Assembly (NCBI GenBank): GCA_903907865.1
Contig: CAIVPR010000041.1
Coordinates: forward strand, 1 to 64,000
Source of the DNA: an uncultured Acidobacteriia bacterium
GTDB taxonomy: Bacteria > Acidobacteriota > Terriglobia > Bryobacterales > Bryobacteraceae
DNA length: 64,000 bases
Direction: 5' to 3'
In this document: positions 34,519 through 50,775 of the stretch, piece after piece
How positions within the stretch are numbered: position 1 is the first letter of the stretch
Layout: each line of letters begins with the position of its first letter
Made by a program: the position numbers and the translations under genes
The notes under the pieces: model-generated
Told to the model about the DNA's origin: nothing
Database searches by the model: none
Seen by the model: only the letters and a program-made list of their open reading frames with translations

Positions 34519-37500
34519 TAGAAGATGTACTTCAAGGCAAGTTGGATGGTCCGGTTGCCGCTCTTGCTGGTTACTGATCCGAAGGTGCCGCTGGTCGGGC
34601 TCGCGTTGGCCCCGCCCCAGTTCGGGTGGTTCAGGATGTTGAAGATTTCGAACCGCATCTGGAGCATCTGTTTTTCAAACGTCGGGAAGTTCTTCCGCAA
34701 GGCGGTGTCCATGTTCCAGAAGCCGGGATTTGTCAGGCCGTTGCGGGCCTGGACACCCCAGGTGCCGTTCGCCGGGGCCGTGAAGGCACTCTTGTTGAAC
34801 CACACGGCGGAATCGGTGAAAGCCGTCGCGGTCGCCGACGAATCGCCTGTCTGGTTCCAGAACTGGTTGCCGCTGCCCGCGCCGACGCCAGCGTAATCCA
34901 CATTGTTGCGGACCGAGAACGGCGCGCCGGTCTGGGCTTGGAAGACGCCTGCCAGCTGCCAGTTGCCGAAGATGCGCGTGGCCAGGTTCTTGCTGCCCTT
35001 CAGATAAGGAATATCGTAGATAGCGTTCAGGATGAACACTTGGCGGCGGTCGAAGTCCGAGCGGCCCCAGTAGCCCTTGTCGTTGTAAGCGTTCGGCAGC
35101 ACATCGGTCAACGACGAGGTGTTGTCCATCGATTTCGAGAACGTGTAGGCGACGCCGAAGTGGAAGTCCGTGGCGAAACGGCGCTCCACACTGATCTGCA
35201 GACCGTTGTACATCGAGACACCCGAGTTTTCCGCCAGCCCCAGAATTCCGAGGCCGAGATAGGGCCGCAACGCGTTCACGTTGATGCCTGGATTGGCCTG
35301 CACCACGCCCGGCTGCAATTGGTTGATGTTGCGCTTGCGCTGGTTGTGGATGCCGCGCCGACCGACATAGCCGATTTCGATGGTGGTTCCCCATCCGATC
35401 TCGCGCTGGAACGTCGCATTCCAGTTCCACGCGACCGGGATCTTGAACACAGGATCCTGGCTCGTCAGCGTAAACGGGAACAGCCGGGGCGTGGCACCGC
35501 CCGGAGCGTCCGCCGACCCGTTGATCACCGTCGTCTGCGGCTGGAACGGGGCATTGCCGCCCAGCGCCGTGTCGCGGTTGATTGCCGTCCGGTTGGCGAA
35601 GGCGCCTACGCCCGCCCGCAGCGCCGTCTTCGTATTCAACGCGTAGGCGATTCCGAGGCGTGGCTGGAAAACGCCGTAGTGGGTCTGGGCCAGACCGTCC
35701 GGCAGGCAGTGGTAAAGGCTGTCGAACTGGCCCGTATGCAGCACCGGGAAGCGGTTGCCCTCGGCGGCGGGCACCTTGCAGCCGGGGAGCACGATGCCGT
35801 CGTACGCGTTGCCACTGGCGATGAAGCCCTGCTTGGGGTCGACCACCGGGGCCTTCGAGGCGTCGTAGAAGGACGGCAGGAACTCCGCCAGGCTGCCCCA
35901 CTTGCTGTGCCACGGGGGCCAGATTGAGTGGCGGATCCCGTATTCGATGGTCAGCTTGCGGCCCGCCTTCCAGTTATCCTGCACAAACCAGTCGAAGCCT
36001 GTCCCGACCCACGGCGTGACGGGCTTCCCGCCCAGTTCCGAGTAGTCCGAGAACAGGCCGAGTGCCGCGTTGCCGATGCCGAAACCGCTGAAGCTGCCGT
36101 CGAGGAAGCGGAACGAGCCGTTCTCGTTGATCGTGGCAGGTGCCGACGCCGTCGTGAACTGTATGTGGTCGTTCTGCCCGGAGTACTCGATGGACACACC
36201 GGCCTTGAACGTGTGATTGGCGATGATCTTCGTGGTGTTGTTGGCCAGCGTGTAGGCGAACCCCGACCAGGATCCCGGATAGGGCCCGTTGTCGATGGTG
36301 GTCAGGCCAGTAACGGTCATCGAGGGCAGCTTGCCGTTGAAAATCTTGGTGCCGGGGTAGATGTAGGGGTAGTTGATGCCGTATGTTGATCGGTTGCAGC
36401 GCGCGCCGCAAGCCGGGTTGGCCGCGATGCTGCCGACGCCGTCGGAATTGGCCGAAAGCGTCAGTTCGTTGATGAAGGTCGGCGAAAGTGTGCTGATCAG
36501 ACTGGCGGCGGCAGTGCGGTTGGGCCGCGACCAAGAAGACTGGAACAGGCCCAGAGTGCCTTCGTAAGGGCCGTCGAAAACCCACGGGATGTGGGTGCCG
36601 CGGAAGCTGATGTGCTCGGTATCGCTCAAGGCGTAATCCACCTTGAAAGTGTCCTTGCGGGTGTCAGAGAAGTGCGGATAGGTGACGATGTAGTTCGACG
36701 TGCCCTGCTGGAAGCCGGGCGTCGGGAGCGGGTACGAACTGAGCAGCGCCTTGCCGTTGGGGCTCACCATCGATGGCGGGATGATGTTGCCGGTGAAGGG
36801 CTTGCCGGTGGTGGGGTCGTTCAGCGTGATGACCTTGCTGAAAAAGGTGTTTTTGGCGTTCAGCAGTTCGCTCATGTCGCCGGTGCGCATGGCCGCGCTG
36901 GGCACGGTGCCGGTCTGGGTCTGGCCTTCGCGGCGCTTGATCCACTCTTCGGCGTACATGAAGAAGAGCTTGGTGTTCTGGCGCTTGGTTTTGCCGGGGA
37001 TGAAGACCGGGCCGCCGACATCCCAGCCGTATTGGTTGAATCGGAAGGGGGCCGGGCCGCTCGATTGCGAAATCAGCGAGCTGTGGTTGCGCGTCCAGTC
37101 GTTGGCGTCCATGGCGGAGTTGCGGAAGTTTTCCACCAGATCGCCGTGGAAGTTGAGCGTACCGCTCTTGGTGACGAAACGGATCTGGCCGCCGGATGAG
37201 CGTCCGTACTCGGCGTTGTAGGTGGCGGTCAGGATTTGGACCTCCTGGACCGTGTCCACGTCCTGCGCTCCGAGCATCGACCCCGAGGACCGGGTGCGGG
37301 TGGCCAGCGCCCCGTCCACCGTTACCACGTACTCGTCGGCGCGACCGCCGTTGATCGAAAATCCGCCGTTGGAGACGCTGTCGGGGTCGAAGGTACCCAT
37401 GGAGCCGCCCGTGACGCCGGGTTTGAGGAGCGCCAAGTAGATGGGATTGCGCCCGTTCAGCGTCAGATCCTGGATCTGTTTGGTGTCCACAACTCGCCCG

Positions 37501-37892
37501 ACCTGCGCGGATTCGGTCTGCAGCAATGCGGCCGTCGACTGCACCTCGACCGATTCGCTGACCGCGCCGACGGTCAGGACCAGGTCGATGCCGAGGCGGG
37601 ATGCGGAGTCGAGGACCGCACCAGTCTGAACCGAGCGTTTGAACCCGGGGTGCTCGGCGGCGACGGAGTAGGTTCCGACCGGGAGGTTGGCGACCACATA
37701 GTAGCCGCTGGCATTGGTGGTGGCGGTCTGCTGGTTGTTGTTGCCGCTGTTGACCACGGTGACGGTGGCCCCGGCGACGACGCCTTGGGAAGAATCGCGG
37801 ACGTAGCCCGCAATCTGGCCGGTGTCGATCTGGGCGAAGGCGGTGGCGGCAAATAGGAGCGCCACTGCGGGCGCAACGGAAAAACGGTTCAT
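34518..37892 (-). CDS. Oar-like TonB-dependent receptor
   Basis: This 1124-residue outer-membrane protein begins at ATG 37892 with a signal peptide (SVAPAVALLFAATAFAQ). The order is a carboxypeptidase-regulatory-like domain (IAGYVRDSSQGVVAGATVTV, then SGYYVVANLPVGTYSV), a plug (RNPIYLALLKPGV, SINGGRADEYVVTVDGA) and a long C-terminal barrel ending in an aromatic residue (LALKYIF). Such Oar proteins are numerous in acidobacteria and usually take up oligosaccharides or peptides. An in-frame extension to 38090 lacks sense. A sigma-70-like promoter at 37941-37969 serves it. The downstream glycosidase is overlapped. Confidence 0.92.
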   Translation of the reverse strand: MNRFSVAPAVALLFAATAFAQIDTGQIAGYVRDSSQGVVAGATVTVVNSGNNNQQTATTNASGYYVVANLPVGTYSVAAEHPGFKRSVQTGAVLDSASRLGIDLVLTVGAVSESVEVQSTAALLQTESAQVGRVVDTKQIQDLTLNGRNPIYLALLKPGVTGGSMGTFDPDSVSNGGFSINGGRADEYVVTVDGALATRTRSSGSMLGAQDVDTVQEVQILTATYNAEYGRSSGGQIRFVTKSGTLNFHGDLVENFRNSAMDANDWTRNHSSLISQSSGPAPFRFNQYGWDVGGPVFIPGKTKRQNTKLFFMYAEEWIKRREGQTQTGTVPSAAMRTGDMSELLNAKNTFFSKVITLNDPTTGKPFTGNIIPPSMVSPNGKALLSSYPLPTPGFQQGTSNYIVTYPHFSDTRKDTFKVDYALSDTEHISFRGTHIPWVFDGPYEGTLGLFQSSWSRPNRTAAASLISTLSPTFINELTLSANSDGVGSIAANPACGARCNRSTYGINYPYIYPGTKIFNGKLPSMTVTGLTTIDNGPYPGSWSGFAYTLANNTTKIIANHTFKAGVSIEYSGQNDHIQFTTASAPATINENGSFRFLDGSFSGFGIGNAALGLFSDYSELGGKPVTPWVGTGFDWFVQDNWKAGRKLTIEYGIRHSIWPPWHSKWGSLAEFLPSFYDASKAPVVDPKQGFIASGNAYDGIVLPGCKVPAAEGNRFPVLHTGQFDSLYHCLPDGLAQTHYGVFQPRLGIAYALNTKTALRAGVGAFANRTAINRDTALGGNAPFQPQTTVINGSADAPGGATPRLFPFTLTSQDPVFKIPVAWNWNATFQREIGWGTTIEIGYVGRRGIHNQRKRNINQLQPGVVQANPGINVNALRPYLGLGILGLAENSGVSMYNGLQISVERRFATDFHFGVAYTFSKSMDNTSSLTDVLPNAYNDKGYWGRSDFDRRQVFILNAIYDIPYLKGSKNLATRIFGNWQLAGVFQAQTGAPFSVRNNVDYAGVGAGSGNQFWNQTGDSSATATAFTDSAVWFNKSAFTAPANGTWGVQARNGLTNPGFWNMDTALRKNFPTFEKQMLQMRFEIFNILNHPNWGGANASPTSGTFGSVTSKSGNRTIQLALKYIF

Positions 37893-38274
37893 ACGTGGAC
37901 CCCTCGGGACCGCTGGGCGGCGGTTGATTTTCTCGTGGCAAGTATATAAGCGATCTGGCCGGAATGCAACTGGACTTTGGTGCGGGGGCTGGGGCGTCCC
38001 GTAATCCAATTGCGCCCCATCAAAAAAATCAATTTGCACTGCCCTCCGTCGGGCGCTAAACTCTAGCAATAGCTCATATCGAGCTGCCATGGGCTCAGTC
38101 GCCCTCGGCCTCCCAACGATCTCGAAGCCCGGTCGCCCCCCTTGACCGCGGCTCGGAGAAGGTCCTTGTCCGACCGATTCGCACTGGCCCCCCAGTGACC
38201 GGTTTCGATGGGTATTGTGGCCCGCCTAGCATTATTTCCCAACAACGCAAATTAGGAAACTTTTGGAGGCCCAC
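37893..38274. other. 382-bp divergent promoter region
   Basis: This gap separates the leftward Oar operon from the rightward ureide operon. I see the Oar promoter at 37941-37969 and a hairpin, CACTGG at 38182-38187 with CCAGTG at 38192-38197. The operon's ribosome-binding site GGAGG lies near 38266. I could not match the stretch to a guanidine, cobalamin or other riboswitch by eye, and I found no convincing -35/-10 pair for the rightward gene. Confidence 0.5.
37941..37969 (-). promoter_or_regulatory. sigma-70-type promoter of the Oar operon
   Basis: On the minus strand TTGCAT (37964-37969) and TATACT (37941-37946) are separated by exactly 17 bp. Both hexamers match the consensus well, and the -10 ends about 48 bp before ATG 37892. 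This is the best-formed promoter in the window. Confidence 0.7.
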
Positions 38275-40947
38275 ATGCTGTTCTACGCCCAAACTACGTC
38301 CATGCTGCCCTGGAAGGCCGTCTCTCGGCCCCGCACGGCAAAGTCCCCCACCACGCTCGCCGGTCTTGCGCTCCTGATGTCCCTTTCGAGCGCCGCCGCC
38401 TGGGCCCAAACCTCCACCCTTTCCGGCACGGTCAAGGACCCGACGGGCGCCGTCGTTGGACAGGCCATCGTCAGCCTGACCGACGCCAAGTCCACCAAGA
38501 AACAGGCAGTCGCGGATGCCGCCGGGGCATACTCGTTCTCCGGTCTCACAGCCGGGGCGTACGTCGTCGAGGTCACCGCACCGGGTTTCGCGGCATTCAA
38601 GAAAGACACCACGGTCGCGGCCGGGGAGCAGACACTCGATCTCAGCCTGACCCTCGCGCAGGAGTCCGGCACCGTCTCGGTCGATTCCAAGATCGACCCC
38701 TTCAACGTGATTCCCACGACCCCGACCCAGACTCTGTTCGGAATGGACCAGAAACTGGAGGAAATTCCACGGTCCATCGTCACGGCGGATCAGGAGACCC
38801 TACTCCGGTACAACGTGAAGACGGTCAACGACATTGTAACTGTTTCCTCGGGAACCTTCACTGGCAGCTATTTCGGCGTGCCGGGAAGCGTGTTCCTCCG
38901 GGGCGATGTCGGCGACAACTTCTTCCGCGGCTTCCGGCGCGTGGAAAACCGGGGCAATTACGAAACACCGGTTGGTGCCACCGATCACATAGAAGTAGTG
39001 AAAGGGCCGCCCACTCCAAACTATGGTGGCGGTCGTATCGGAGGCTTTCTCAACTTCGTCCCTAAGACGGCACGCAGCGAGAGTGCGAAATGGCTCGAGA
39101 AAGCTACTGGAAAGCTTACCCTGACATACGGAAGCTACGACGAGAAGCGCGGGAGCGCCGAGGTCGGAGTCCCGTTCAAGATAGGCACGCACCGTAACGG
39201 CTTGTACGCGTTCTTCGAATCGGAGGATTCGCACAGCTTCTACAAGGGCGTCGCGAACCGGTACAAGCTGGGCCAGATCGCGTTCGACACCGAGGTGTCG
39301 AAGAACATCCGGATGGCCTACGGATTCCAGGGATTCCACGCGGAGGGCACGCAGAACATCGGCTGGAACCGCGTTACGCAAGACCTGATAGACAACCAGA
39401 TGTATCTTTCCGGCCAGCCCTTGGTGAACCTCTCGCACAACGGTTACAACATCGGGCCCGGGGACGTTGGCTCCTACGCGCTTAGCCAGTTCGCATATAC
39501 TCAGAACTTCGGGGCGACGCCGGATTTCAAGTCCGTGGCGCAATACTATGCGCTCAATCCGGCAACCATGAAGCTGGTGAAGCTGCCATTGGACCAGATC
39601 ATGATCGACGCGGGTGACTTTTCCCGTGCGACCACCTTCACACCTTATCTGGACTTCATCTGGGACGCCGGTGCAAACCTTCACGTCAAGAACCAGACGT
39701 TCGGCGACTGGATGGACCACAAGAAGTTCAGCAGCTACGGTTTCGGTGCGGCCTACCACCCGTGGACAATCGAAAACAAGACGACACTGAATACGGACTA
39801 CAAGCTGGCTCCGGGTATCACTGGCCACTTCATCGGTGGTTTCGCCTACCGCTATGTGAGAGTAACTGCAGGGGAGGAGCGCAACGAATTCCAGGTTGTC
39901 GACCGTCGCGACCTCACCATCGGCGCGACCGCGAATGACCGTTTTGCCGGTCCGTTCAACAGCAACGGCAAGCTGAAGTTCCAGTATTATCAAAACGGCA
40001 ACTATGGTGACACCGGTCTGTTCGGCATGACCAACCTATCACTCGGCAGCAATCTTGGCGTTACAGCCGGTGTCCGTTTCGACCGCTACACTCCAGACTT
40101 CACAGGCCATGACGATACGGACAACTTCGTCTCCACCCACGCGGTGAACAAGCAGAATGCCGTGACCTACAATGCGAGCGTCACTTACAAGCTGCCTTTC
40201 AACATACGCCCCTACTTTACAGCCGCAACTTCACGCTTCCTCGACCTTGGCCAGGGCAACGAACTGGACTATGCGCAGGTCCAGAACGGGACTTTCCTCG
40301 CGACCTCAAATCTGTATGAAGGCGGCGTCAAGACCTCCGGCTTCGACAACAAGTTCTTCGCCTCGATGAGCGTCTTCCAACAGAAGAGGGCATCGTTCAA
40401 CAACCAGACGAAGGCGGACGACTACTTCCGCACCAAGGGCGTTGAAATCGACGCACGAGCCTTCGTGTTGCACCGGTTGACGCTGACCAGCTCCTTCACG
40501 TGGCAGAATCCGGAACAGCTAAATGTGCCGTTCCTGCTGGGGATTCCGCCGTATCTGCTCGGTCTGACTCCGCAGCAGGCGTATGGCGGACGTTTCATCG
40601 GGGATGCCAGCATCTTCGGATTGAAGGCACCGCTGCCGGTTGGCGGACAGCCGCACATTGTATTCAGCCCCTTTGGAACGGTCAATCTGACCAAGACTAT
40701 CGGGGTCACGCTGGGTACATCGGCTGTTTCTTCGGTCAAAACAGGCTACATCAGCAACGTAAAGCTACCCGCCTACGCGCTGACCCGGGGCTCGGTCTTC
40801 TACCAGAACAAGGGGCACTTGGTGAATGTGGCGATCGGCAACATGTTCAACAGCACGTACTTCCAGAGCCAGTATCTGTTTTGGGATGTCTTCGTGAAGC
40901 CGGGCGCGTTGCGCACGGTGAGCCTGACGTACAGCTACTCCTTCTAA
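38275..40947 (+). CDS. TonB-dependent receptor heading the ureide operon
   Basis: ATG 38275 follows GGAGG by 8 nt; an upstream in-frame TTG (38263) lies inside the ribosome site. The 890 residues hold a signal peptide (TTLAGLALLMSLSSAAAWAQ), a carboxypeptidase-regulatory-like domain (TLSGTVKDPTGAVVGQAIVS), a plug with VKGPPTPNYGGGRIGGFLNF and a barrel ending in YSYSF. It is closer to siderophore-type receptors than to Oar proteins. Downstream genes encode an inner-membrane importer and hydrolases, so this is likely the outer-membrane gate for the same compound. It is the only TonB receptor in this orientation. Confidence 0.9.
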   Translation: MLFYAQTTSMLPWKAVSRPRTAKSPTTLAGLALLMSLSSAAAWAQTSTLSGTVKDPTGAVVGQAIVSLTDAKSTKKQAVADAAGAYSFSGLTAGAYVVEVTAPGFAAFKKDTTVAAGEQTLDLSLTLAQESGTVSVDSKIDPFNVIPTTPTQTLFGMDQKLEEIPRSIVTADQETLLRYNVKTVNDIVTVSSGTFTGSYFGVPGSVFLRGDVGDNFFRGFRRVENRGNYETPVGATDHIEVVKGPPTPNYGGGRIGGFLNFVPKTARSESAKWLEKATGKLTLTYGSYDEKRGSAEVGVPFKIGTHRNGLYAFFESEDSHSFYKGVANRYKLGQIAFDTEVSKNIRMAYGFQGFHAEGTQNIGWNRVTQDLIDNQMYLSGQPLVNLSHNGYNIGPGDVGSYALSQFAYTQNFGATPDFKSVAQYYALNPATMKLVKLPLDQIMIDAGDFSRATTFTPYLDFIWDAGANLHVKNQTFGDWMDHKKFSSYGFGAAYHPWTIENKTTLNTDYKLAPGITGHFIGGFAYRYVRVTAGEERNEFQVVDRRDLTIGATANDRFAGPFNSNGKLKFQYYQNGNYGDTGLFGMTNLSLGSNLGVTAGVRFDRYTPDFTGHDDTDNFVSTHAVNKQNAVTYNASVTYKLPFNIRPYFTAATSRFLDLGQGNELDYAQVQNGTFLATSNLYEGGVKTSGFDNKFFASMSVFQQKRASFNNQTKADDYFRTKGVEIDARAFVLHRLTLTSSFTWQNPEQLNVPFLLGIPPYLLGLTPQQAYGGRFIGDASIFGLKAPLPVGGQPHIVFSPFGTVNLTKTIGVTLGTSAVSSVKTGYISNVKLPAYALTRGSVFYQNKGHLVNVAIGNMFNSTYFQSQYLFWDVFVKPGALRTVSLTYSYSF

Positions 40948-40962
40948 CAAGGAAGAGGTGCC

Positions 40963-40988
40963 AAGGGCCAGCGCGACCGCCGGCCCTT
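40963..40988 (+). repeat. stem-loop between receptor and hydrolase genes
   Basis: AAGGGCC at 40963-40969 pairs with GGCCCTT at 40982-40988 across 12 nt. No T-run follows, so a processing or stabilising hairpin is likelier than a terminator. It could set the ratio of receptor to downstream gene expression. Confidence 0.4.
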
Positions 40989-41004
40989 CGCACTGATCAA
41001 AAAC

Positions 41005-41544
41005 ATGCTCAACAATCCCACTGTGGTCGCCGAGATCGCGGCCCTACACGAGGAGTACGAGACCGCCCTCGTCTCCAATGATGTCGAGAAACTGGTGACT
41101 TTCTTCTGGGACTCCCCCGACGCTCTCCGTTTCGGCGTGGCCGAGAGCCTTTACGGGGCGAAGCAGATTGAAGAGTTCCGCAAGAACAGGCCCGCCGTGG
41201 ATCTAGCGCGGACAGTCCTGAACCTTCAGATCGTCACCTTCGGGGACGACAATGCCATCGTTACCTTGGAATTCGACCGCACCGTGCAGGGTGTTCCCCG
41301 GCACGGTCGCCAGAGCCAGGTGTGGCGCAAATTCGACCACGGCTGGAAGATCGTGTCGGCGCACGTGTCCTTGGTGCCCATGCCGTACATCGACCTCGCC
41401 GGTCCGCTGGTCCAACTGCCAATTCCGCCGGAATTGCGTGAGGGTGTGCAGCGGAACATCGCACGGGCGAAGGTAATCGCGCAGTCCCTGATCGACATGG
41501 AACTCCCGGCCGACGTTGAGGCCGCTCCCAAATTCATACCATGA
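41005..41544 (+). CDS. AtzH-AtzG fusion protein (DUF3225 + AtzG-like)
   Basis: Residues 1-127 match the AtzH/HpxZ family (DUF3225): an NTF2-like fold opening LNNPTVVAEIAALHEEYETA and ending GRQSQVWRKFDHGWKIVSAH. In the cyanurate pathway AtzH decarboxylates 1,3-dicarboxyurea to allophanate. Residues 128-179 (LAGPLVQLPIPPELREGVQ, then ELPADVEAAPKF) look like AtzG/HpxX, the small subunit that AtzE needs. No separate atzG was found in the operon. The two are normally separate proteins of about 125 and 65 residues. The ATGA stop overlaps the atzE start. ATG 41005 fits the family N-terminus despite a weak ribosome site. Confidence 0.75.
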   Translation: MLNNPTVVAEIAALHEEYETALVSNDVEKLVTFFWDSPDALRFGVAESLYGAKQIEEFRKNRPAVDLARTVLNLQIVTFGDDNAIVTLEFDRTVQGVPRHGRQSQVWRKFDHGWKIVSAHVSLVPMPYIDLAGPLVQLPIPPELREGVQRNIARAKVIAQSLIDMELPADVEAAPKFIP

Positions 41545-42959
41545 CATCACAACCTGTTCTCCATCAGGACGACGCCTTGGCGATTGCCGGGCGGATTCGT
41601 TCGAAGCAGTTCAGCGCGCAAGAGGTTGTGCGCGCCGCGCTGGATCGGATTGGGAAGTTGGACCCAACTCTGAACTGCTTTACTGCGCTGCTGCCGGAGT
41701 CGGCAATGGCGCAGGCTGTCGAAGTGGATCGGAAGATCGCGGCGGGCCTCGATCCGGGGCCGCTGGCCGGAGTGCCGTTCGCGGTGAAGAACTTGCTGGA
41801 TATTCAGGGTCTCCCAACTCTCGCGGGTTCCAAGATTCAGCGCGAGAAGCCGCCCAAGGATTCCGATGCCGCCACGGTGCGGCATTTGAAGGAGGCCGGT
41901 GCGATCCTGCTGGGCGCGCTCAACATGGACGAGTACGCCTACGGGTTCACCACGGAGAACTCGCACTACGGGCCGACGCGGAATCCTCACAACTTGGCGC
42001 ATGTCGCGGGAGGATCGTCCGGCGGATCGGCGGCGGCGGTGGCGGCGGGATTGGTGCCGTTGACGCTCGGCTCGGACACGAACGGCTCGATCCGCGTTCC
42101 GGCGGCGTTCTGCGGTGTTTATGGGTTCAAGCCCACCTACGGTCGCATTTCACGGGCGGGGGCGTTCCTGTTTGCCGCCAGTTTCGACCATATTGGACCA
42201 TTCGCAAGGTCGGTGCGGGACATCGCGGCGTCATTCGATGTGATGCATGGCTTCGACCCCGACGACGCGGTCTCGATCAACAAGCCTCCGTCGCCCTGCC
42301 TGCCGGAACTGGACAAGGGTATCGAGGGTCTGCGCATTGCCATGGCCGACGGGTATTTTACGCGGCTGGGGTTGCCGGAAGTTTTCGAGCCGGTGCGCAA
42401 GGTGGCCGCGGCGCTGGGAGTCACCCGGACGGTCGAGGTGCCCGACGCGGAAAAGGCTCGCGCGGCGGCTTATGTGATCACCGGGTGCGAGGGGTCCAAC
42501 CTGCACTTGGCTGACTTGCGCAAGCGCCCCCATGATTTCGATCCGGTCGTGATCGAGCGGTTTCTGGCGGGGGCATTGTTCCCATCGGCGTGGTATCTGC
42601 AGGCGCAACGGTTCCGGACCATCTACCAGAAGAAAGTGCGTGCGCTGTTCGATGATGTGGATGTGATCCTGGCACCGTCCACGCCATGCCCGGCCATCAG
42701 GATCGGGCAGGAGACGATCACATTGGACGGCGTCGAACTCCCCTCGCGTCCCAATATCGGGATCTTTACGCAGCCGCTGTCGTTTGTAGGGTTGCCGATC
42801 ATCTCTGTGCCGGTGGTCGGGGGTGGCTTGCCGCTCGGCGTGCAGGTGATCGGAGCACCGTACAACGAGGCCGCCGTCCTCCGCGTTGCCGCCTATCTGG
42901 AGGCGCAGGGCATCACGAAGGCCCCGGTGGCGGAATTCGGGGAGGCCGCGGGTGCCTAA
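41541..42959 (+). CDS. atzE: AtzE-family amidohydrolase (1-carboxybiuret hydrolase-like)
   Basis: This 472-residue amidase-signature enzyme has K83 in FAVKNLLD, cis-Ser near 159 in GGSSGGSAAA and nucleophile S183 in SDTNGSIRVP, an intact Ser-Ser-Lys triad. Sequence such as NMDEYAYGFTTENSHYGPTRN is typical of the AtzE/HpxY group. AtzE with AtzG deaminates 1-carboxybiuret; HpxY acts on oxalurate. The neighbouring AtzF and AtzH favour the carboxybiuret-type route, yet oxalurate cannot be excluded. The gene overlaps its neighbours on both sides, by 4 and 8 bp. Confidence 0.88.
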   Translation: MTSQPVLHQDDALAIAGRIRSKQFSAQEVVRAALDRIGKLDPTLNCFTALLPESAMAQAVEVDRKIAAGLDPGPLAGVPFAVKNLLDIQGLPTLAGSKIQREKPPKDSDAATVRHLKEAGAILLGALNMDEYAYGFTTENSHYGPTRNPHNLAHVAGGSSGGSAAAVAAGLVPLTLGSDTNGSIRVPAAFCGVYGFKPTYGRISRAGAFLFAASFDHIGPFARSVRDIAASFDVMHGFDPDDAVSINKPPSPCLPELDKGIEGLRIAMADGYFTRLGLPEVFEPVRKVAAALGVTRTVEVPDAEKARAAAYVITGCEGSNLHLADLRKRPHDFDPVVIERFLAGALFPSAWYLQAQRFRTIYQKKVRALFDDVDVILAPSTPCPAIRIGQETITLDGVELPSRPNIGIFTQPLSFVGLPIISVPVVGGGLPLGVQVIGAPYNEAAVLRVAAYLEAQGITKAPVAEFGEAAGA

Positions 42960-44064
42960 GCCGATCACCCGCCGTGCCTTCGGGGCCCTTTGCGGCGCGG
43001 CTCCACTGGCTGCTGCCGGTACAGCTGATCCGCTCAGCATCGGCTTTGTCTACAACGGCCCGAAGAACGACCTCGGCTACAACCAGGCGCACGCAGAGGG
43101 CAAGCAATCGCTCAAGTCGCTGCCTTGGGTGCGGGCTTTCGACGAGGCCAACGTGCCGGAAACCGTGGCGGTCGAGGAATCGATGCGCAACATGGTCTAC
43201 CAGGATCATGCGAAGATCGTCTTCGCGACCTCCTACGGGTTCCTCGACCCCTTCGTCCTCCGCGTCGCGCGCGAATGCCGCAATACGCAGTTCTTCCACT
43301 GCGGGGGCTCCTACCGCGACGGCGGCGACCCGCCCAACGTCGGCATCTACTTCGGCTTCATCGACGAGGTGGAATATCTTGCAGGCATGACGGCGGGCCT
43401 GATGACGCGCACCGGTCGCATGGGGTTCATCGCGGCCAAGCCGATTCCGCAGGTGCTGCGGAACATCAACAGCTTCATGCTGGGCGCGCGTAGCGTCAAT
43501 CCGAACGTCACCATGCGGGTGGTTTTCACCGGCGACTGGGTGCTGCCGGTCCGCGAGGCCGAGGCCTCCAGCAGCTTGGCCGATCAGGGTGTGGACGTGC
43601 TGACCGGACACACGGGGTCGCCGCGGGTCATCGTGCAGGTGGCTGAACGTCGGGGTATTTACGCCACTGGCTACCAGTTCAACCAGTCCGTCCTCGCCCC
43701 GCACGGCTTCCTGACGGGGGCCGAGTGGGCGTGGGGCGTGGTGTACCGGAAGTATGCCGAGATGGTGAGGGCAGGGAAGTCGGTGGTGGATGGCAGCATC
43801 CCCCGTCGCATGACGGGCACCCTGAAGGACGAGTTCTGCCGCCTTTCCCCGTTTGGTCCGGCGGTGACCGCCGAAAAACGCGACGCGGTCGCGCAGGCCA
43901 AACGGCGTCTGCTGGATGGTTCGCAGGCCATTTACCGCGGGCCGCTCCGGGACAACACCGGCAAGACGGTGGTTCCGGCGGGCCGCACCATCGGCATTGA
44001 GGAGACCGCGCTCGACCAAATGAATTGGCTTGTGGAAGGAATCCAGGGGGACGTGCGCTCATGA
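42952..44064 (+). CDS. BMP-family ABC substrate-binding protein, Tat-exported
   Basis: GTG 42952 overlaps the end of atzE by 8 bp and has GGAGG 6 nt upstream. A twin-arginine signal (ITRRAFGALCGAAPLAAAG) precedes a Bmp/PnrA-type periplasmic-binding fold: FVYNGPKNDLGYNQAHAEGK, then MVYQDHAKIVFATSYGFLD, and AKPIPQVLRNINSF. The family binds nucleosides, purines and related heterocycles, which fits a ring-like or ureido ligand. Tat export suggests folding with a ligand or cofactor. The two permeases and ATPase that follow complete the importer. Confidence 0.88.
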   Translation: MPKPITRRAFGALCGAAPLAAAGTADPLSIGFVYNGPKNDLGYNQAHAEGKQSLKSLPWVRAFDEANVPETVAVEESMRNMVYQDHAKIVFATSYGFLDPFVLRVARECRNTQFFHCGGSYRDGGDPPNVGIYFGFIDEVEYLAGMTAGLMTRTGRMGFIAAKPIPQVLRNINSFMLGARSVNPNVTMRVVFTGDWVLPVREAEASSSLADQGVDVLTGHTGSPRVIVQVAERRGIYATGYQFNQSVLAPHGFLTGAEWAWGVVYRKYAEMVRAGKSVVDGSIPRRMTGTLKDEFCRLSPFGPAVTAEKRDAVAQAKRRLLDGSQAIYRGPLRDNTGKTVVPAGRTIGIEETALDQMNWLVEGIQGDVRS

Positions 44065-45137
44065 CTTCCGAACAGAATTTCGAAGGGGTCGCGATCCCGG
44101 TCATCGCCATCGGCACGGCCCTGCTGCTGTTCAGCCTGTTTTGCGCCGGGGTGGGGGCGTCGCCGGGAGGTGTTCTGGCGTCGATCTACACGGCGGGTTT
44201 TGGCAGTTGGTACGCTTGGCAGAACAGCCTGCTCCGGGCCGCCCCGCTGATGCTCTGCGGATTGGCGACGGCGCTTCCCGCCCAGGCCGGGGTCATCACG
44301 GTGGGCAACGAGGGGGCGTTCGTGGTGGGCGGTCTCGCCGCCGCGGCCGCTGGGCTTGCGACCACCTCCGGTCCGCCCCTGCTGTGCCTTGCGGCGATGT
44401 TTCTCGCCGGGGCCGTGGTCGGCGGCGCATGGATCATGTTGGCGGCGGGACTCCAGTACTACCGGGGCGTCAACGCCGTCATCAGCAGCCTCTTGTTGAA
44501 TTACATCGGCATTGCCCTGCTGCTGCAGTTGGTCGAAGGCCCGATGCGCGATCCCGACAGTCTCAATTTTCCGGCGACGTTCCCCCTTCCTTTGTCGCAC
44601 CAGCTGGGCCGGATTCCAGGAACCCGCATCCACTACGGGCTGGTCTTCGGCGTCGTGGCCTGCCTCTTGGGCTGGTTTCTGTTGGAGCGGACGGTCTGGG
44701 GCATGAAGCTCAAGATCGCGGGCGGAAACGCGCGTGCCGCCAAGCTGGTGGGATTGCCCTTGGGCCGAATCGTCCTGACCGCCGGATTCCTCGGCGGCGC
44801 CTGCGCGGGTTTGGCGGGCATGGTGGAAGTCGCGGCGATCCATGGTCGAGCGAGCCAGGCGATATCCGCAGGCTACGGCTACGTCGGCATCCTGGTGGCA
44901 TTCCTGTCGCGCCAATCGCCCCTGCGGATTCTGGTGGTTTCGCTGATTCTGGGCGCGGTGCTGGCCAGCGGCGGCAGCTTGCAACGCACCCATGACTTGC
45001 CGGACGCCACTATCAACGTCTTCGAAGGCCTGGCCTTCCTCTCGATCCTCGCCAGCGAGGCCTTGGCGGGACGGCTCGGATTCCTCACAGCCCTGTTCAA
45101 GCCGGTTTCCACGGAGGTTGCGGATGCAAAGCTCTGA
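44061..45137 (+). CDS. ABC transporter permease 1 (BMP/nucleoside type)
   Basis: This 358-residue membrane protein has about nine hydrophobic segments and the BMP-transporter permease signatures AAPLMLCGLATALPAQAGVI and AGGNARAAKLVGLP, the cytoplasmic loop that contacts the ATPase. ATG 44061 overlaps the binding-protein stop (ATGA). It pairs with the second permease and shares an operon with it; their genes overlap by 14 bp. Confidence 0.9.
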   Translation: MTSEQNFEGVAIPVIAIGTALLLFSLFCAGVGASPGGVLASIYTAGFGSWYAWQNSLLRAAPLMLCGLATALPAQAGVITVGNEGAFVVGGLAAAAAGLATTSGPPLLCLAAMFLAGAVVGGAWIMLAAGLQYYRGVNAVISSLLLNYIGIALLLQLVEGPMRDPDSLNFPATFPLPLSHQLGRIPGTRIHYGLVFGVVACLLGWFLLERTVWGMKLKIAGGNARAAKLVGLPLGRIVLTAGFLGGACAGLAGMVEVAAIHGRASQAISAGYGYVGILVAFLSRQSPLRILVVSLILGAVLASGGSLQRTHDLPDATINVFEGLAFLSILASEALAGRLGFLTALFKPVSTEVADAKL

Positions 45138-46053
45138 TTCGCTCGGGAACCTCGGAATCCTCGTCGCCATAGCGGGCGGGGCGTTGCGCGGCAGCATCCC
45201 CTACATCTACGTCAGCCTCGGCGAATGCCTCACGGAGAAGAGCGGGCGCATCAATCTCGGCATGGAGGGAATCCTGCTGATGGGCGCGATGACGGCGTTC
45301 GCGGTTTCTGACCAGTCGGGATCGCCGTGGCTGGGGCTTCTGGCCGCGGCGTTCGTGGGCGGGCTCTTCGGCCTGCTCCTCGCCGGGATCACCGAACTTC
45401 CCGGTGTGAACGACGTCGCGGCCGGCATCGCCATGATCATCTTCGGCAGCGGGCTGGCCTTCTTTTTCGGCAAGCAGTTCGTGGCCCCGATGGCCCCGCA
45501 GCTTCCTGTGATCGATTTCGGCCAGGGGATTGCGAATGCGGGCGTCCATGCGGCGCTGCGGATCAGTCCGCTGTTCGTCCTTGGGATCGCGGTCGCGTTC
45601 CTGATGCATTTCGCGTTCGAACGGACGCGCTGGGGGCTGCACCTTCGCGCTGTGGGGGATGCCCCGGACGCAGCGCGGTCGATGGGAATTGCGGTGCGTC
45701 GTCATCGCGTTGTTGCGACCACCATCGGAGCGGCGCTCGCGGGAATCGGAGGCTCGCACTTGACGCTGTACTTCCCCGGCATCTGGTCGGAGGGAATCTC
45801 CGGCGGCCAAGGCCTGATGGCGGTGGCGCTGGTGATTTTCGCGAGATGGAGCCCCCTACGGTGTCTCGCGGCGTCACTGCTTTTCGGAGGGGCGCAGGCG
45901 TTGGGGCCGTCGCTGCAATCGGCGGGCATCTCCGGCTTCTACCACGTGTTCAATGCGTCGCCGTACCTGTTGACGCTGGTTCTGATGGTGCTTTCGTGTT
46001 CCCGCACGCGGCGGCTCGACGGCATACCCGGATCCTTGGCGAGGAGGGGCTGA
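45124..46053 (+). CDS. ABC transporter permease 2 (BMP/nucleoside type)
   Basis: The 309 residues include IPYIYVSLGECLTEKSGRIN, the start signature of the second nucleoside-type permease, NLGMEGILLMGAMTAF, and RAVGDAPDAARSMGI, the ATPase-contact loop. It has about eight to nine membrane spans. Its ATG lies inside the end of permease 1, and its stop overlaps the ATPase start (TGATG). Confidence 0.9.
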   Translation: MQSSDSLGNLGILVAIAGGALRGSIPYIYVSLGECLTEKSGRINLGMEGILLMGAMTAFAVSDQSGSPWLGLLAAAFVGGLFGLLLAGITELPGVNDVAAGIAMIIFGSGLAFFFGKQFVAPMAPQLPVIDFGQGIANAGVHAALRISPLFVLGIAVAFLMHFAFERTRWGLHLRAVGDAPDAARSMGIAVRRHRVVATTIGAALAGIGGSHLTLYFPGIWSEGISGGQGLMAVALVIFARWSPLRCLAASLLFGGAQALGPSLQSAGISGFYHVFNASPYLLTLVLMVLSCSRTRRLDGIPGSLARRG

Positions 46054-47564
46054 TGCACGGACCAGCAAGAGTAGAGGCGATTTGCATCGGCAAGACCTTC
46101 GGACCGGTGCGCGCGCTGGAAGGCGTTAACCTGACGGTTCCATCCGGCACGTTCCACGCGATTGTCGGCGAAAACGGGGCAGGGAAGAGCACGCTCGCAA
46201 AGTGTCTGCTCGGGTTCTACCGGCCCGACGAGGGCGAGGTGCGCTTGGACGGCGTTCCTGTCTCCACGCCCGCCGAGGCCCGCCGCGCCGGACTGGGCAT
46301 GGTTTTCCAGCATTTCACGCTCGCGCCGTCGCTTACCGTGGCCGAGAACCTCGTGCTTGCCCGGACGGACCTGCCCGCCATCCTGAATTGGAAGAAGGAG
46401 AAGGAACGGCTTCGGACCTTCCTCGAACACGCTCCTTTCCAGATCAACCTTGAGGACAGGGTCGAACACCTTGCCGCAGGACAGAAGCAGAAGGTCGAAA
46501 TCCTGAAGCAACTGTATCTGGAGACCCGCGTCCTGATTCTCGACGAGCCCACGTCCGTCCTGACGCCAGCCGAGGCCGACGAGGTGATGACTGTGCTCAA
46601 CGCGCTTGTCCGCAAGGAAGCGCTCAGCGTGATCCTGATCACCCACAAGCTGCGCGAGGTTATGGCCTTCGCCGACGACGTGACGGTGTTGCGAAGGGGC
46701 CGCTGGGTCGCTTCGTGCTCGGTCGGCAGTACGAGCATTCCCGAGATTTCATCGCTGATGGTGGGGAACGCGCCGTTGCGGGAGCAGTCCGCCCGGACGG
46801 ACATGACCGCCGGTGGCGCAGTTCTAGAAATCCAGAATCTGTCCGTGCTGGGCGACCACGGCTTGCCCGCAGTCAAGGATTTGAGCCTGACCCTGAAGGC
46901 CGGTGAGATCCTGGGGATCGCAGGCGTGTCCGGCAACGGGCAGCGCGAATTGGTCCAGGCCATCGGCGGGCAGCGGGACATCGCTAGCGGCGAGGTCCGG
47001 GTCGCCGGAAAGCCGTTCCATGGGACCCGTGCTGATATCCGCGAGTGCGGCGTGTTCACTCTGCCCGAGGAACCGCTGCAAAACGCTACCGTACCCGGAA
47101 TGTCGGTAGCGCAGAACATCGCGCTCCGGACGTTCGACCAGGCCCCGACTGCCAAGCTCGGTTTCCTGTTGGACCGGGGGGCCATCCGCCGCGCCGCGAC
47201 GGCGGCCGTGGAGCGCTTCTCGATCAGGACGCCCTCCATCGACACCCCGATCCGCAACCTCTCGGGCGGTAACGTGCAGCGGGCCGTTTTGGCGAGGGAC
47301 CTTGGGGCGAGGCCACCCAAGATAATGGTAGTGGCGAACCCGTGCTTCGGGCTGGATTTCGCCGCGACCGGCTTTGTGCACAACCAACTGGTGGAACTGC
47401 GCAATGGCGGCGGGTCGGTGCTGCTGGTTAGCGAGGACTTGGACGAGCTGATGAAGATCGCGGACAGGATCGTGGTGATGAGCGACGGACGGATTGCCCA
47501 CGAATCCACGCGGGCCGAGTTGGACCTGGCGGTGGTGGGACGCTACATGGGGGGACATGAGTAA
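46053..47564 (+). CDS. double-domain ABC ATPase
   Basis: The 503 residues carry two ATPase domains. The first has an intact Walker A (GENGAGKST) and Walker B (VLILDEPTS), with LAAGQKQKVEI as signature. The second has GVSGNGQRE and VVANPCFGLD, lacking the Walker A lysine and the usual Walker B acid, with LSGGNVQ as signature. That asymmetry is normal for sugar/nucleoside-type importers. It powers uptake with the two permeases. Start is ATG 46053 with a one-base stop overlap; its 3' end overlaps atzF by 8 bp. Confidence 0.93.
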   Translation: MHGPARVEAICIGKTFGPVRALEGVNLTVPSGTFHAIVGENGAGKSTLAKCLLGFYRPDEGEVRLDGVPVSTPAEARRAGLGMVFQHFTLAPSLTVAENLVLARTDLPAILNWKKEKERLRTFLEHAPFQINLEDRVEHLAAGQKQKVEILKQLYLETRVLILDEPTSVLTPAEADEVMTVLNALVRKEALSVILITHKLREVMAFADDVTVLRRGRWVASCSVGSTSIPEISSLMVGNAPLREQSARTDMTAGGAVLEIQNLSVLGDHGLPAVKDLSLTLKAGEILGIAGVSGNGQRELVQAIGGQRDIASGEVRVAGKPFHGTRADIRECGVFTLPEEPLQNATVPGMSVAQNIALRTFDQAPTAKLGFLLDRGAIRRAATAAVERFSIRTPSIDTPIRNLSGGNVQRAVLARDLGARPPKIMVVANPCFGLDFAATGFVHNQLVELRNGGGSVLLVSEDLDELMKIADRIVVMSDGRIAHESTRAELDLAVVGRYMGGHE

Positions 47565-49344
47565 AGTCGGATCTTTGGCGATCAGCGCGCTTCGGGCGGG
47601 GTATCGCAGTGGCGGGTTGAATCCCGTCGAGGTGGTGGAGGCGGTCTACGAGCGCATCGCTGCACATGCCGATGACGCTGTTTGGATCCATCTGGTCCCC
47701 CGCGAAGAGGCCGTGGCGCGCGCCCGGGCCCTTTCAGACCCCAACTTGCCCCTCTACGGGATTCCCTTCGCCGTCAAGGACAACATCGACGCAGCAGGAA
47801 TTCCCACGACGGCGGCCTGTCCGGCTTTTGCGTACACGCCGGGCCGGAACGCGGAAACGGTCGAGCGGTTGCTGGCTGCGGGTGCGATTCTGATCGGGAA
47901 GACGAATTTGGATCAGTTCGCCACCGGTCTTGTCGGGGTGAGGTCGCCCTACGGGGTTCCGCGAAACGCCATCCATCCGGACTATGTTCCGGGCGGATCG
48001 AGTTCCGGCTCGGCGGTTGCAGTCGCTGCGGGGCTGGTGAGTTTTTCGTTGGGCACGGACACGGCCGGGTCTGGCCGCGTTCCCGCCGCGTTCAATAACA
48101 TCGTCGGGCTGAAACCCACTCGTGGCTACTTCAGCACTCGGGGTGTGGTTCCGGCATGTCGGACGCTCGATTGCGTCTCGGTGTTTGCGCTGACTTGCGA
48201 CGACGCGGGGGCGGTGGGTGCCATCCTGACCGGATTTGACGCCGAGGATGCCTTCAGTCGGCGCGAAGCGTCGCCGGTCGCAATGGCGATCGAATCGGCC
48301 AAGGGATTCCGTTTCGGTGTTCCGGACCGGGCGTCCCTCGAATTCTTCGGCGATACCGAGACTCCGGCGTTGTTCGAGCAGGCGGTCCGCGATCTGAAGG
48401 AGTTGGGCGGGACCGAGGTGTCAATCGACTTCACACCGCTGCGGGAGACGGCGGCCCTGCTGTACCAAGGGCCGTGGGTCGCGGAACGGATGGCGGCGTT
48501 GAAGCCGTTCATGGCCGAACACGCGGCCGACATGCATCCCGTGACACGAGCCATTGTGGAGGGCGCGAACCGGTTCTCGGCTACCGACGCTTTCGAGGCA
48601 ACGTACCGGCTGGCGGAATTGAGGCGGCAGGTTGAGCCGATGTGGGTCGGGGTGGACGTGGTGCTGCTCCCGACCGCTGGCACGTGCTTTACTTTGGCGC
48701 AGTTGGCGGCTGAGCCTGTCGCCCGCAACACGGACCTCGGGTACTATACGAACTTCCTCAACCTATTAGATATGTGCGCGACCGCCGTGCCCTCCGGCTT
48801 CTGCACAAACGGGGTCCCGTTCGGTGTGACGCTGGCGGCACCGGCGGGTCGTGACGGGTTTGTGCTGGGTATCGCCGGCCGTTTGCACCGCATCCGGCCC
48901 GTCCCGATGGGCGCAACCGGCATTCCGGTTCCGGTCTCAAGGGCGGTGGACGGGGAAGTCGCGGTCGCCGTGGTCGGAGCGCACTTGCGGGGACTGCCGT
49001 TGAACCGTGAACTTCTGGAAGGCGGCGCGGTCTTCCTTCGGCAATGCCGGACCGCTCCGATCTACAAGTTCTACGAACTACCCGGGGCGGTCCCGAGAAA
49101 GCCGGGCTTGATCCGGCAGACCGAGGGCGGCACCGCCATCGAGGTCGAAGTTTGGCGCATGCCAGCGGCGCAATTCGGGGCGTTTGTGGCTCGAATTCCG
49201 GCCCCTCTAGGCATCGGAACCTTGGTGTTGGAGACGGGTGAATCGGTCAAGGGCTTCCTCGCCGAGCCAGCCGCCTGCGAAGGTGCAAGGGATATTTCGG
49301 AGTTCGGGGGTTGGCGGCAGTACTTGGCGGGCGGGTCCAAGTAG
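47557..49344 (+). CDS. atzF: allophanate hydrolase, AtzF type
   Basis: The 595-residue enzyme has an amidase domain with K74 in FAVKDNIDAAG, cis-Ser in GGSSSGS (about 148) and nucleophile S172 in TDTAGSGRVP. It ends with the specific C-terminal domain of allophanate hydrolases (about 440-595; AVVGAHLRGLPLNREL, YKFYELPG, KPGLIR). The reaction is allophanate to two ammonia and two CO2. Its length matches AtzF (about 605). Position at the end of the operon makes it the terminal step of the proposed pathway. No urea carboxylase gene adjoins, so the allophanate likely comes from AtzE/AtzH products. Confidence 0.93.
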   Translation: MSKVGSLAISALRAGYRSGGLNPVEVVEAVYERIAAHADDAVWIHLVPREEAVARARALSDPNLPLYGIPFAVKDNIDAAGIPTTAACPAFAYTPGRNAETVERLLAAGAILIGKTNLDQFATGLVGVRSPYGVPRNAIHPDYVPGGSSSGSAVAVAAGLVSFSLGTDTAGSGRVPAAFNNIVGLKPTRGYFSTRGVVPACRTLDCVSVFALTCDDAGAVGAILTGFDAEDAFSRREASPVAMAIESAKGFRFGVPDRASLEFFGDTETPALFEQAVRDLKELGGTEVSIDFTPLRETAALLYQGPWVAERMAALKPFMAEHAADMHPVTRAIVEGANRFSATDAFEATYRLAELRRQVEPMWVGVDVVLLPTAGTCFTLAQLAAEPVARNTDLGYYTNFLNLLDMCATAVPSGFCTNGVPFGVTLAAPAGRDGFVLGIAGRLHRIRPVPMGATGIPVPVSRAVDGEVAVAVVGAHLRGLPLNRELLEGGAVFLRQCRTAPIYKFYELPGAVPRKPGLIRQTEGGTAIEVEVWRMPAAQFGAFVARIPAPLGIGTLVLETGESVKGFLAEPAACEGARDISEFGGWRQYLAGGSK

Positions 49345-49428: not shown

Positions 49429-50775
49429 ATGAAGCCTCAGGCCCCTTTCCATACTCCGGTTCCCAGGCGGGATGCCATCCGCGTCGGCTTCTGCGCGGCG
49501 CTTGGCCTCGGCATCCCCGACATTCTCCGCTTCGAGGCCCAGGCTGCGACCATCGCGCCAGGTGCGTTCACAGAAGGCAAGGCCAAGTCCGTCATCCACC
49601 TCCACCTGCCCGGCGGCATGTCCCACCAGGAATCTTGGGACCCCAAGCCCGAAGCTCCCGGCGAATACCGGGGGGCACTCGGCGTGGTCAAGACCAAGGG
49701 CGGGGAGGTCTTCAGCGAAAACTTCGTCAAGCTCGCCAAGGTGGCCGACAAGATCAACGTCATCCGCTCCATTGTTGGCAAGATCCCCGACCACCAGCTC
49801 GCCACCTACCAGGTTTTCACCGCCTACACTCCCACCACCGTCCTCGACTACCCCCAAATGGGCGCGGTGGTATCCCACCTGTTCGGCGGGCGCAATGGAC
49901 TTCCGCCTTATGTCGTGATACCCCGCCTGAGCGGCTACGAGGGCGGCACCGGCTTCCTCAGTTCCAAATACGGAGCCTTCCAGCTCAACGCCGACCCCGG
50001 GGCCAACGGCGTCTTCAAGATCCGCGACTTCTCCATCCCCAACGGCGTCTCCCTCGAACAGTTCGAGCGCCGCAAGACGGCCCGCGACATCGTCGAGCAG
50101 CACATGCGGCACCTTGAGGCCGATCCCGACAAACTCAACACGATGGACGAGTTCAACAAGAGCGCCTACTCGCTGCTCACCAGCGAGAAGTCGCGCAAGG
50201 CGTTCTCGCTCGATGGCGAGACGGATGCGACCCGCGAACTCTACGGCAAGGGCCTGAAGCTCAAGAACGGCCAGCCCGCCGCCATCGCCGAACGCCTGCT
50301 GCTGGCGCGCCGTCTGGTGGAAGCTGGCGTCCGCTTCGTCACTGTCAGCTACGGCTCGTGGGACGCCCACACGGCGATCAAGGATATCTCGAACGACCAG
50401 ATGCCCGCGTTGGACCAGGCGATTGCCGGACTGGTCACCGACCTCGACCAGCGAGGCATGCTCGACAGCACGCTTGTCATGGTGACCACCGAGTTCGGCC
50501 GCACCCCCAAGATCAACGCTGGCAACGGCCGCGACCACTGGGCCCGCTGCTACTCGATGTTGCTGGCTGGTGGCGGCACCACCCGCGGCCAGATCTACGG
50601 AGCCTCGGATTCGACCGCAGCCGAGCCCGCCCGCGACGCCGTCCCGGTTGAGGACTACCTCGCGACCGCCTACCGCCAACTGGGCATCGATTCGACCCAG
50701 AAGCTGATGGCCATGGGCGCCCGCCCCGTCGAAATCGGTGGCGGTGGCAAAGTAGTCACCTCCCTCCTGAGCTAA
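49429..50775 (+). CDS. DUF1501 exported protein, Tat signal
   Basis: This 448-residue DUF1501 (sulfatase-like alkaline phosphatase-superfamily fold) protein has an N-terminal PRRDAIRVGFCAALGLG twin-arginine signal. LHLPGGMSHQESWDPK opens the fold, and metal-binding sequence around TTEFGRTPK and NGRDHWARCY follows. DUF1501 genes usually sit with PSCyt/DUF1549-DUF1553 genes, as here. I chose ATG 49429; a TTG at 49393 lies upstream. It begins the four-gene exported cluster running to 56967. Confidence 0.85.
   Translation: MKPQAPFHTPVPRRDAIRVGFCAALGLGIPDILRFEAQAATIAPGAFTEGKAKSVIHLHLPGGMSHQESWDPKPEAPGEYRGALGVVKTKGGEVFSENFVKLAKVADKINVIRSIVGKIPDHQLATYQVFTAYTPTTVLDYPQMGAVVSHLFGGRNGLPPYVVIPRLSGYEGGTGFLSSKYGAFQLNADPGANGVFKIRDFSIPNGVSLEQFERRKTARDIVEQHMRHLEADPDKLNTMDEFNKSAYSLLTSEKSRKAFSLDGETDATRELYGKGLKLKNGQPAAIAERLLLARRLVEAGVRFVTVSYGSWDAHTAIKDISNDQMPALDQAIAGLVTDLDQRGMLDSTLVMVTTEFGRTPKINAGNGRDHWARCYSMLLAGGGTTRGQIYGASDSTAAEPARDAVPVEDYLATAYRQLGIDSTQKLMAMGARPVEIGGGGKVVTSLLS

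Follow-up and report, generated by a model that had tools for sequence, protein, structure and literature searches.

A 64,000-nucleotide stretch of DNA (positions 1 to 64,000 of contig CAIVPR010000041.1, hereafter the window) from an uncultured soil acidobacterium, labelled G000 here, carries eight genes on one strand (38275-49344, + strand), encoding a TonB-dependent receptor, a fused AtzH-AtzG protein, an AtzE family amidohydrolase, a BMP-type ATP-binding cassette (ABC) importer and an AtzF allophanate hydrolase. We found that the receptor belongs to this probable operon, and a conserved linkage across genomes supports one co-inherited uptake-and-hydrolysis unit, as the first-pass annotation had suggested. 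On balance the operon probably serves nitrogen scavenging from a urea oligomer in the class of triuret, biuret and cyanurate. The enzymes fall into known families. What is new is the receptor as a partner and the fused enzyme; we regard the architecture as well-supported and the substrate as unproven.

Conservation of the receptor gene

The receptor (38275..40947, + strand) has 890 amino acids, in which Pfam models recognised a CarboxypepD_reg domain, a plug and a barrel. Its stop codon is separated by a 57-bp gap from the start of the fusion gene, and the last seven genes overlap successively by 4, 8, 4, 14, 1 and 8 bp, the 1-bp overlap joining the end of permease 2 to the start of the ATPase (TGATG). 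The coordinates and family assignments of this row, including the overlaps, were confirmed as first annotated, with scores far above chance. An inverted repeat, AAGGGCC...GGCCCTT, was seen by eye between the receptor and fusion genes (40948-41004). It lacks a T run and is a possible processing or attenuation site.

Among 237 genomes of the same family the fusion was matched in 35: 11 contained it at full length (G000 included; 12 loci), 5 gave a strong match to the AtzH part only and 19 gave weak matches. In every family locus but one (11 of 12, the window included; the exception is L046) the receptor gene was located directly upstream of the fusion. The reverse search for receptor orthologues (E<=1e-100, at most three candidates scored per genome) retrieved 12 of the 237 genomes, namely all 11 with a full-length fusion and G025. 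A scan of public genomes, in which the best 80 of at least 585 confirmed loci were examined, gave nine full-length fusions, eight of them with the receptor gene upstream. Seven of the nine appear to be acidobacterial family loci; the others come from a Verrucomicrobia metagenome-assembled genome (L079) and from Croceicoccus ponticola (L094). Both of these have the order receptor-fusion-AtzE, with receptor relatives at 38-40%, and a GntR/FCD regulator gene divergent from the receptor gene. In a phylum sample of 396 genomes (E<=1e-20) the full fusion was found in its own genome only, and 7 other genomes, all of another family, matched it over the AtzH part only.

The receptor might have been an ordinary iron-siderophore receptor that lies upstream by chance. 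The profile of the receptor group does match solved siderophore receptors best, although weakly (E 3.5e-19, in the plug region), and the gap of 57 bp precedes the next gene in the window. Of the ten other family loci that carry the receptor, however, nine have only 2-36 bp between the receptor stop and the aligned fusion start. In the tenth (L044) the distance was 87 bp, or 18 bp when counted to an earlier possible start, and in the other phyla it was 74 bp (L079) and 55 bp (L094). Receptor and fusion are, moreover, linked in 11 of the 12 loci of the family and, through relatives of the receptor, in two other phyla; we consider this explanation very improbable. A mere chance neighbour was rejected by the family linkage and the reverse orthologue search.

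AtzH-only genes were additionally seen in a second Acidobacteriota context, in L051-L055 (G154, G153, G137, G100 and G048; AtzH at L051:9892-10293). An amidase gene was located within the same 20-kb stretch in L051, L052, L054 and L055, and none was seen in L053. Formamidase-, deaminase- and creatininase-like genes occur in some of the five loci; single members were tested, all scoring under the curated cut-offs, and the rest were assigned by resemblance.

Enzymes encoded in the operon

The AtzE protein (41541..42959, + strand; 472 amino acids) scored 677 bits against TIGR02715 (cut-off 426) and 707 bits against NF006631. It is 52% identical to AtzE of plasmid pADP-1, contains the amidase-signature motifs and is a predicted 1-carboxybiuret amidohydrolase. 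AtzF (47557..49344, + strand) scored 797 bits against the allophanate hydrolase model TIGR02713 (cut-off 511), and its C-terminal AH_C domain 168 bits against PF21986. The fusion (41005..41544, + strand) comprises an AtzH-like domain (PF11533, residues 2-124, 155 bits) and an AtzG-like domain (PF13318, residues 128-177, 45 bits) within one chain of 179 amino acids, which rules out AtzH and AtzG as two separate genes. The earlier assignment of these proteins to the lower cyanurate pathway was supported by curated models for AtzE, AtzG, AtzH and AtzF.

Nine AtzH pocket residues were taken from PMC6219798. Tyr22, Arg46, Arg63, Arg66, Arg73, Phe94, Arg96, Gln106 and Gln108 are all kept in 12 of 12 aligned fusions, in an alignment that was read by eye with the letters confirmed. 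The AtzH half is predicted to be a 1,3-dicarboxyurea decarboxylating amidohydrolase and the AtzG half a partner-subunit domain of AtzE. A role of AtzEGH beyond cyanurate degradation was left open in the same paper.

The BMP protein and its relatives

The BMP/PnrA-type substrate-binding protein (42952..44064, + strand; 370 amino acids, GTG start; Bmp model, 104 bits) is followed by two ABC permeases of the Pfam family BPD_transp_2 (44061..45137 and 45124..46053, + strand) and by an ABC ATPase with two nucleotide-binding domains (46053..47564, + strand; two ABC_tran stretches). Its N-terminus appeared twin-arginine-like by eye. AtzT (6pi5) was the closest protein in the PDB (E 4e-58) and also the best Foldseek match of the predicted model (mean pLDDT 78; E 1.6e-27). 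In one alignment the BMP protein was 46.7% identical to a relative from Rhizobium, 48.3% to one from P. oryzihabitans and 34.5% to AtzT.

AtzT binds guanine, and its pocket residues have been described (PMC6834077). The window protein keeps Tyr45, Ser97, Asn169 and Trp194, and with them the Tyr45/Trp194 sandwich, whereas the guanine-site residues Glu165, Asn218 and Asn220 are replaced by Gln, His and Gly. Among 24 non-AtzT BMP proteins, position 165 is Gln in 23 (Tyr in L098), position 218 is His in all 24, and position 220 is Gly in 7 acidobacterial proteins and Asp in the 17 others. An AtzT-like guanine specificity was rejected on the basis of these three positions.

The same three residues bear on the explanation that receptor and BMP protein import urate, 8-oxoguanine or xanthine, whose rings would be opened elsewhere so that the operon handles the ureido tail only. 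In its favour, the BMP fold is that of the guanine binder AtzT, and in G025, the only genome beyond the eleven with the fusion to have a receptor orthologue (47%), NCS2 and 8-oxoguanine-deaminase-type genes come after that orthologue. We nevertheless hold a purine-derived ring to be distinctly unlikely, as neither this operon nor the related ones that were read showed any purine gene and the guanine site is altered. The G025 locus itself (L186, 6166-11505, - strand) encodes the receptor relative, an NCS2 protein of the xanthine-permease type (434 bits, cut-off 414) and a protein of the 8-oxoguanine-deaminase type (671 bits, cut-off 532); it is possible that this is a TonB-fed purine-salvage operon.

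The closer BMP relatives were found among other genes. The Rhizobium leguminosarum operon has the order BMP-permease-permease-formamidase-BiuH-type-atzD-ATPase-TrtA-type, and the P. oryzihabitans relative is located with AtzF, BiuH-type, TrtA-type and HpxZ/AtzH genes; judged by signature motifs, each of these two plasmid operons holds one BiuH-type and one TrtA-type gene. A Rhizobium protein annotated as allophanate hydrolase was rejected as AtzF, since it has 117 amino acids and is cupin-like by eye. Among the best 80 of at least 585 public loci, 9 from Burkholderiales combine AtzF, AtzE, AtzH, the BMP protein, the ATPase and two permeases along a single strand; every one of these 9 complete rows also has a TrtA-type open reading frame (ORF). 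In nitrifiers trtA, biuH, trtB and atzF occur beside bmpA-nupABC (PMC12625717). As that paper already reports rows of BMP with triuret genes, the association of the importer with triuret is not new.

Exchange of the importer

A BMP protein follows AtzE in 7 of the 12 family loci (the window, L040, L042, L043, L045, L048 and L050), and in L047 and L049 the contigs end within AtzE. In L041 (G066) AtzE is followed by a TrtA-like gene and then by an alternative permease, and in L044 the gene for this permease is divergent from the receptor gene. Outside the family the rows read receptor-fusion-AtzE-TrtA-like-permease in the Verrucomicrobia locus and receptor-fusion-AtzE-permease-AtzF in Croceicoccus. 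In G195 and G066, whose AtzE proteins are nested within BMP-type clades of the AtzE tree, the importer was swapped for the alternative permease while the receptor-fusion-AtzE core remained constant. Such an exchange, with receptor, fusion and AtzE retained, suggests one class of cargo. In the AtzE tree the permease-type L044 groups with the window and L041 with the BMP-type L042 and L043. The fusion-bearing L079 and L094 do not adjoin the acidobacterial sequences, so that the fusion either arose twice or moved.

Copies of the alternative permease were located at L044:5105-6802 (- strand), L079:6692-8269, L094:11994-13631 and L185:9429-11207 (- strand). The protein has about 13 hydrophobic segments and was matched in 15 of the 237 family genomes. 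No Pfam family was found for three sequences in one search, nor for two in another, and no NCBIfam family for one copy and two distant homologues. Among four distant homologues searched in Pfam, one gave a weak match to DUF3561 (E 0.041). The permease profile gave nothing useful against the PDB and nothing significant against one NCS2 protein, and structure prediction was poor (mean pLDDT 39). In G005, which has no fusion, the neighbours of the permease are AtzF, a TrtA-type gene, a BiuH gene that exceeds the curated cut-off (406 bits, cut-off 370) and a Rid-like gene that falls short of its own. Five of six distant permease copies adjoin one conserved gene, whose protein contains ACWNYDRT near its start.

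Candidate first-step enzymes and distribution of AtzF

The core is paired with a TrtA-like gene directly after AtzE in two loci, those of G066 and the Verrucomicrobia genome. Six TrtA-specific residues have been defined (PMC7948467); read by eye, the L079 protein has 6 of 6 and the G066 protein 5 of 6, with Tyr at Phe35. Both scored below the BiuH cut-off (277 and 284 bits, respectively, against 370).

Ten of the 11 genomes with the fusion contain AH_C, which marks AtzF, compared with 74 of the 237 family genomes overall (Fisher p 4.6e-5, without correction for kinship). The only AH_C match in G000 is the AtzF of this operon. In G103 the only AtzF match (L163) lies at a contig start and follows an ATPase fragment that resembles the window's by eye. 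In the other eight genomes AtzF is located beside a urea-carboxylase-type gene or fragment, as judged by ORF resemblance; one of these clusters (L160) was checked with models and gave 1809 bits with TIGR02712 together with UAAP2. Clusters of AtzF and urea-carboxylase-type genes can serve guanidine breakdown.

Proposed pathway and its alternatives

In the proposed pathway the receptor would take the compound across the outer membrane, as its conserved linkage suggests, and the BMP protein with the ABC transporter, whose family is established, would import the same presumed ligand. A terminal -NH2 might then be removed to give 1-carboxybiuret, for which AtzE acting on triuret is perhaps the simplest candidate. 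With the AtzG half of the fusion holding it, AtzE would release NH3 and convert 1-carboxybiuret to 1,3-dicarboxyurea, the AtzH half would decarboxylate this to allophanate, and AtzF would split allophanate into ammonia and CO2. The last three steps are predicted from homology to the tested enzymes of Pseudomonas sp. ADP and from conserved residues. A urea oligomer is preferred because triuret minus one end amine is 1-carboxybiuret and minus both is 1,3-dicarboxyurea; AtzE acting twice on triuret would thus close the pathway. A more far-reaching version is possible but doubtful. An undescribed class of TonB receptor for a urea oligomer would feed a triuret pathway reduced to a minimum: AtzE and the fusion would strip both triuret ends without TrtA, dicarboxyurea would be channelled to the fused decarboxylase, and two importers, the BMP ABC transporter and the permease without Pfam or NCBIfam match, would be interchangeable.

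The first-pass annotation had found neither AtzD nor a biuret hydrolase and considered that the substrate may be new. Both absences hold for the operon and extend to the genome, although TrtA-like genes do occur in G066 and the Verrucomicrobia genome. The substrate need not be new, as related loci tie the core and the importer to genes for triuret, biuret and cyanurate hydrolases, and these compounds are known nitrogen sources.

A number of observations weigh against a urea oligomer as substrate. AtzD (PF09663) was found in 0 of the 11 fusion genomes, G000 included (3 of 3 control plasmid records were found), and a TrtA-like query gave no TrtA/BiuH match (E<=0.001) in G000. How 1-carboxybiuret would be formed is therefore unexplained, and neither the initial step nor the precise substrate is proven. 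In the BMP-type relatives the best match to the TrtA query was 39% (G140, outside the operon), the others being 27-38% and mostly partial, or lacking. The permease-type L044 and L094 are without a TrtA-type gene, and L046, a second fusion-AtzE copy in G015, has no receptor or importer and neither BMP, TrtA-like gene nor alternative permease. The eleventh fusion genome, G168, showed no AtzF (92% complete; its contig ends inside permease 1). Three of the four loci that reach past the ATPase (L042, L045 and L050) lack AtzF there, and in these genomes AtzF sits in a carboxylase cluster elsewhere. Rooted at its midpoint, the AtzE tree separates the window from pADP-1 AtzE, which lies in the opposite half together with Serratia HpxY, while the window's half includes an AtzE of Acidithiobacillus whose gene belongs to an Hpx-like cluster; the tree does not settle the substrate. 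Neither the AtzH residues nor the HpxZ model separate 1,3-dicarboxyurea from oxalurate chemistry.

Several of these points would fit an oxalurate operon of the HpxXYZ type, in which AtzE and AtzH-AtzG turn oxalurate into oxamate and AtzF is a passenger serving another route. Oxalurate is a purine breakdown product, and the HpxXYZ-type route gives oxamate. Besides the position of the Acidithiobacillus AtzE and the loci lacking AtzF after the ATPase, the AtzH part of the fusion scores 143.2 bits with the HpxZ equivalog model, above its cut-off of 135. As pADP-1 AtzH is itself annotated HpxZ, however, this model cannot tell the two apart. In Serratia and Acidithiobacillus the AtzG-AtzE-AtzH row adjoins a gamma-glutamyltransferase gene, and genes of this type occur in 11 of 11 fusion genomes (up to 35%, E 6e-90 in G168). 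The operon itself contains none, and among the many G000 paralogues the best-scoring match to the Acidithiobacillus protein was 32%, compared with 43% for the protein of Serratia. The earlier statement that HpxW is missing stood for the operon; genome-wide, an HpxW may be present among the many gamma-glutamyltransferase paralogues. With AtzF inside the window operon and importer relatives accompanying TrtA-, BiuH- and AtzD-type genes, we consider an oxalurate operon unlikely and continue to prefer a urea oligomer.

Comparison with known systems

The atzDGEHF operon with the divergent atzRSTUVW genes on pADP-1 of Pseudomonas sp. ADP shares AtzE, AtzG, AtzH, AtzF and a BMP-type ABC transporter with the window. 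The window differs in that AtzD is absent, AtzH and AtzG are fused, the receptor stands in the row, the importer is co-directional, the BMP protein (34.5% identical) has a different pocket, and AtzE falls in the other half of the tree. Rows of the type AtzF-ABC-AtzG-AtzE-AtzH-ABC have already been published for Burkholderiales (PMC6219798). They have AtzF, AtzE, AtzH and the BMP transporter in common with the window (BMP 44-49% in 9 complete rows), whereas their AtzH is unfused and the window receptor, searched by tblastn with the window protein only, found no match in them. The sections consulted in that paper make no mention of the TrtA-type ORF of these rows. The triuret and biuret operons TrtA-BiuH-AtzF (PMC7948467, PMC12625717) share AtzF and the same funnel to allophanate, and the nitrifier rows of PMC12625717 and the Rhizobium operon also the BMP transporter; in place of TrtA/BiuH the window has AtzE and AtzH-AtzG. 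Homologues of HpxX, HpxY and HpxZ of the hpxWXYZ oxalurate cluster are present in the window, but its operon contains AtzF and a BMP importer and no HpxW-type gene.

A TonB receptor, an AtzH-AtzG fusion or the alternative permease in such a context was not found in the literature, which was searched largely without subscription papers. The usual cargo of TonB systems is iron, cobalamin or glycans. The operon provides a function hypothesis for a receptor group without assigned ligand, suggests that a small nitrogen compound is actively taken up across the outer membrane, and links AtzEGH to triuret-type nitrogen. Uric acid oxidation can yield triuret (PMC7948467). The fused AtzH-AtzG protein and the permease without family model are testable proteins.

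Flanking sequences

In positions 30000-56000 no RNA family reached the Rfam gathering score. Scans for sigma-70 consensus promoters (3 against 2.4) and for terminators (8 against 11.1) were no richer than in shuffled sequences. A DUF1501 gene (49429-50775) begins about 85 bp past AtzF on the same strand and is followed by more same-strand ORFs up to 56967; these are probably a separate unit. Upstream and divergent, the stretch 32311-38090 (- strand) encodes a GHL6 / Glyco_hydro_42M protein and contains a 1190-amino-acid ORF that by eye resembles a TonB/Oar-type outer-membrane protein.

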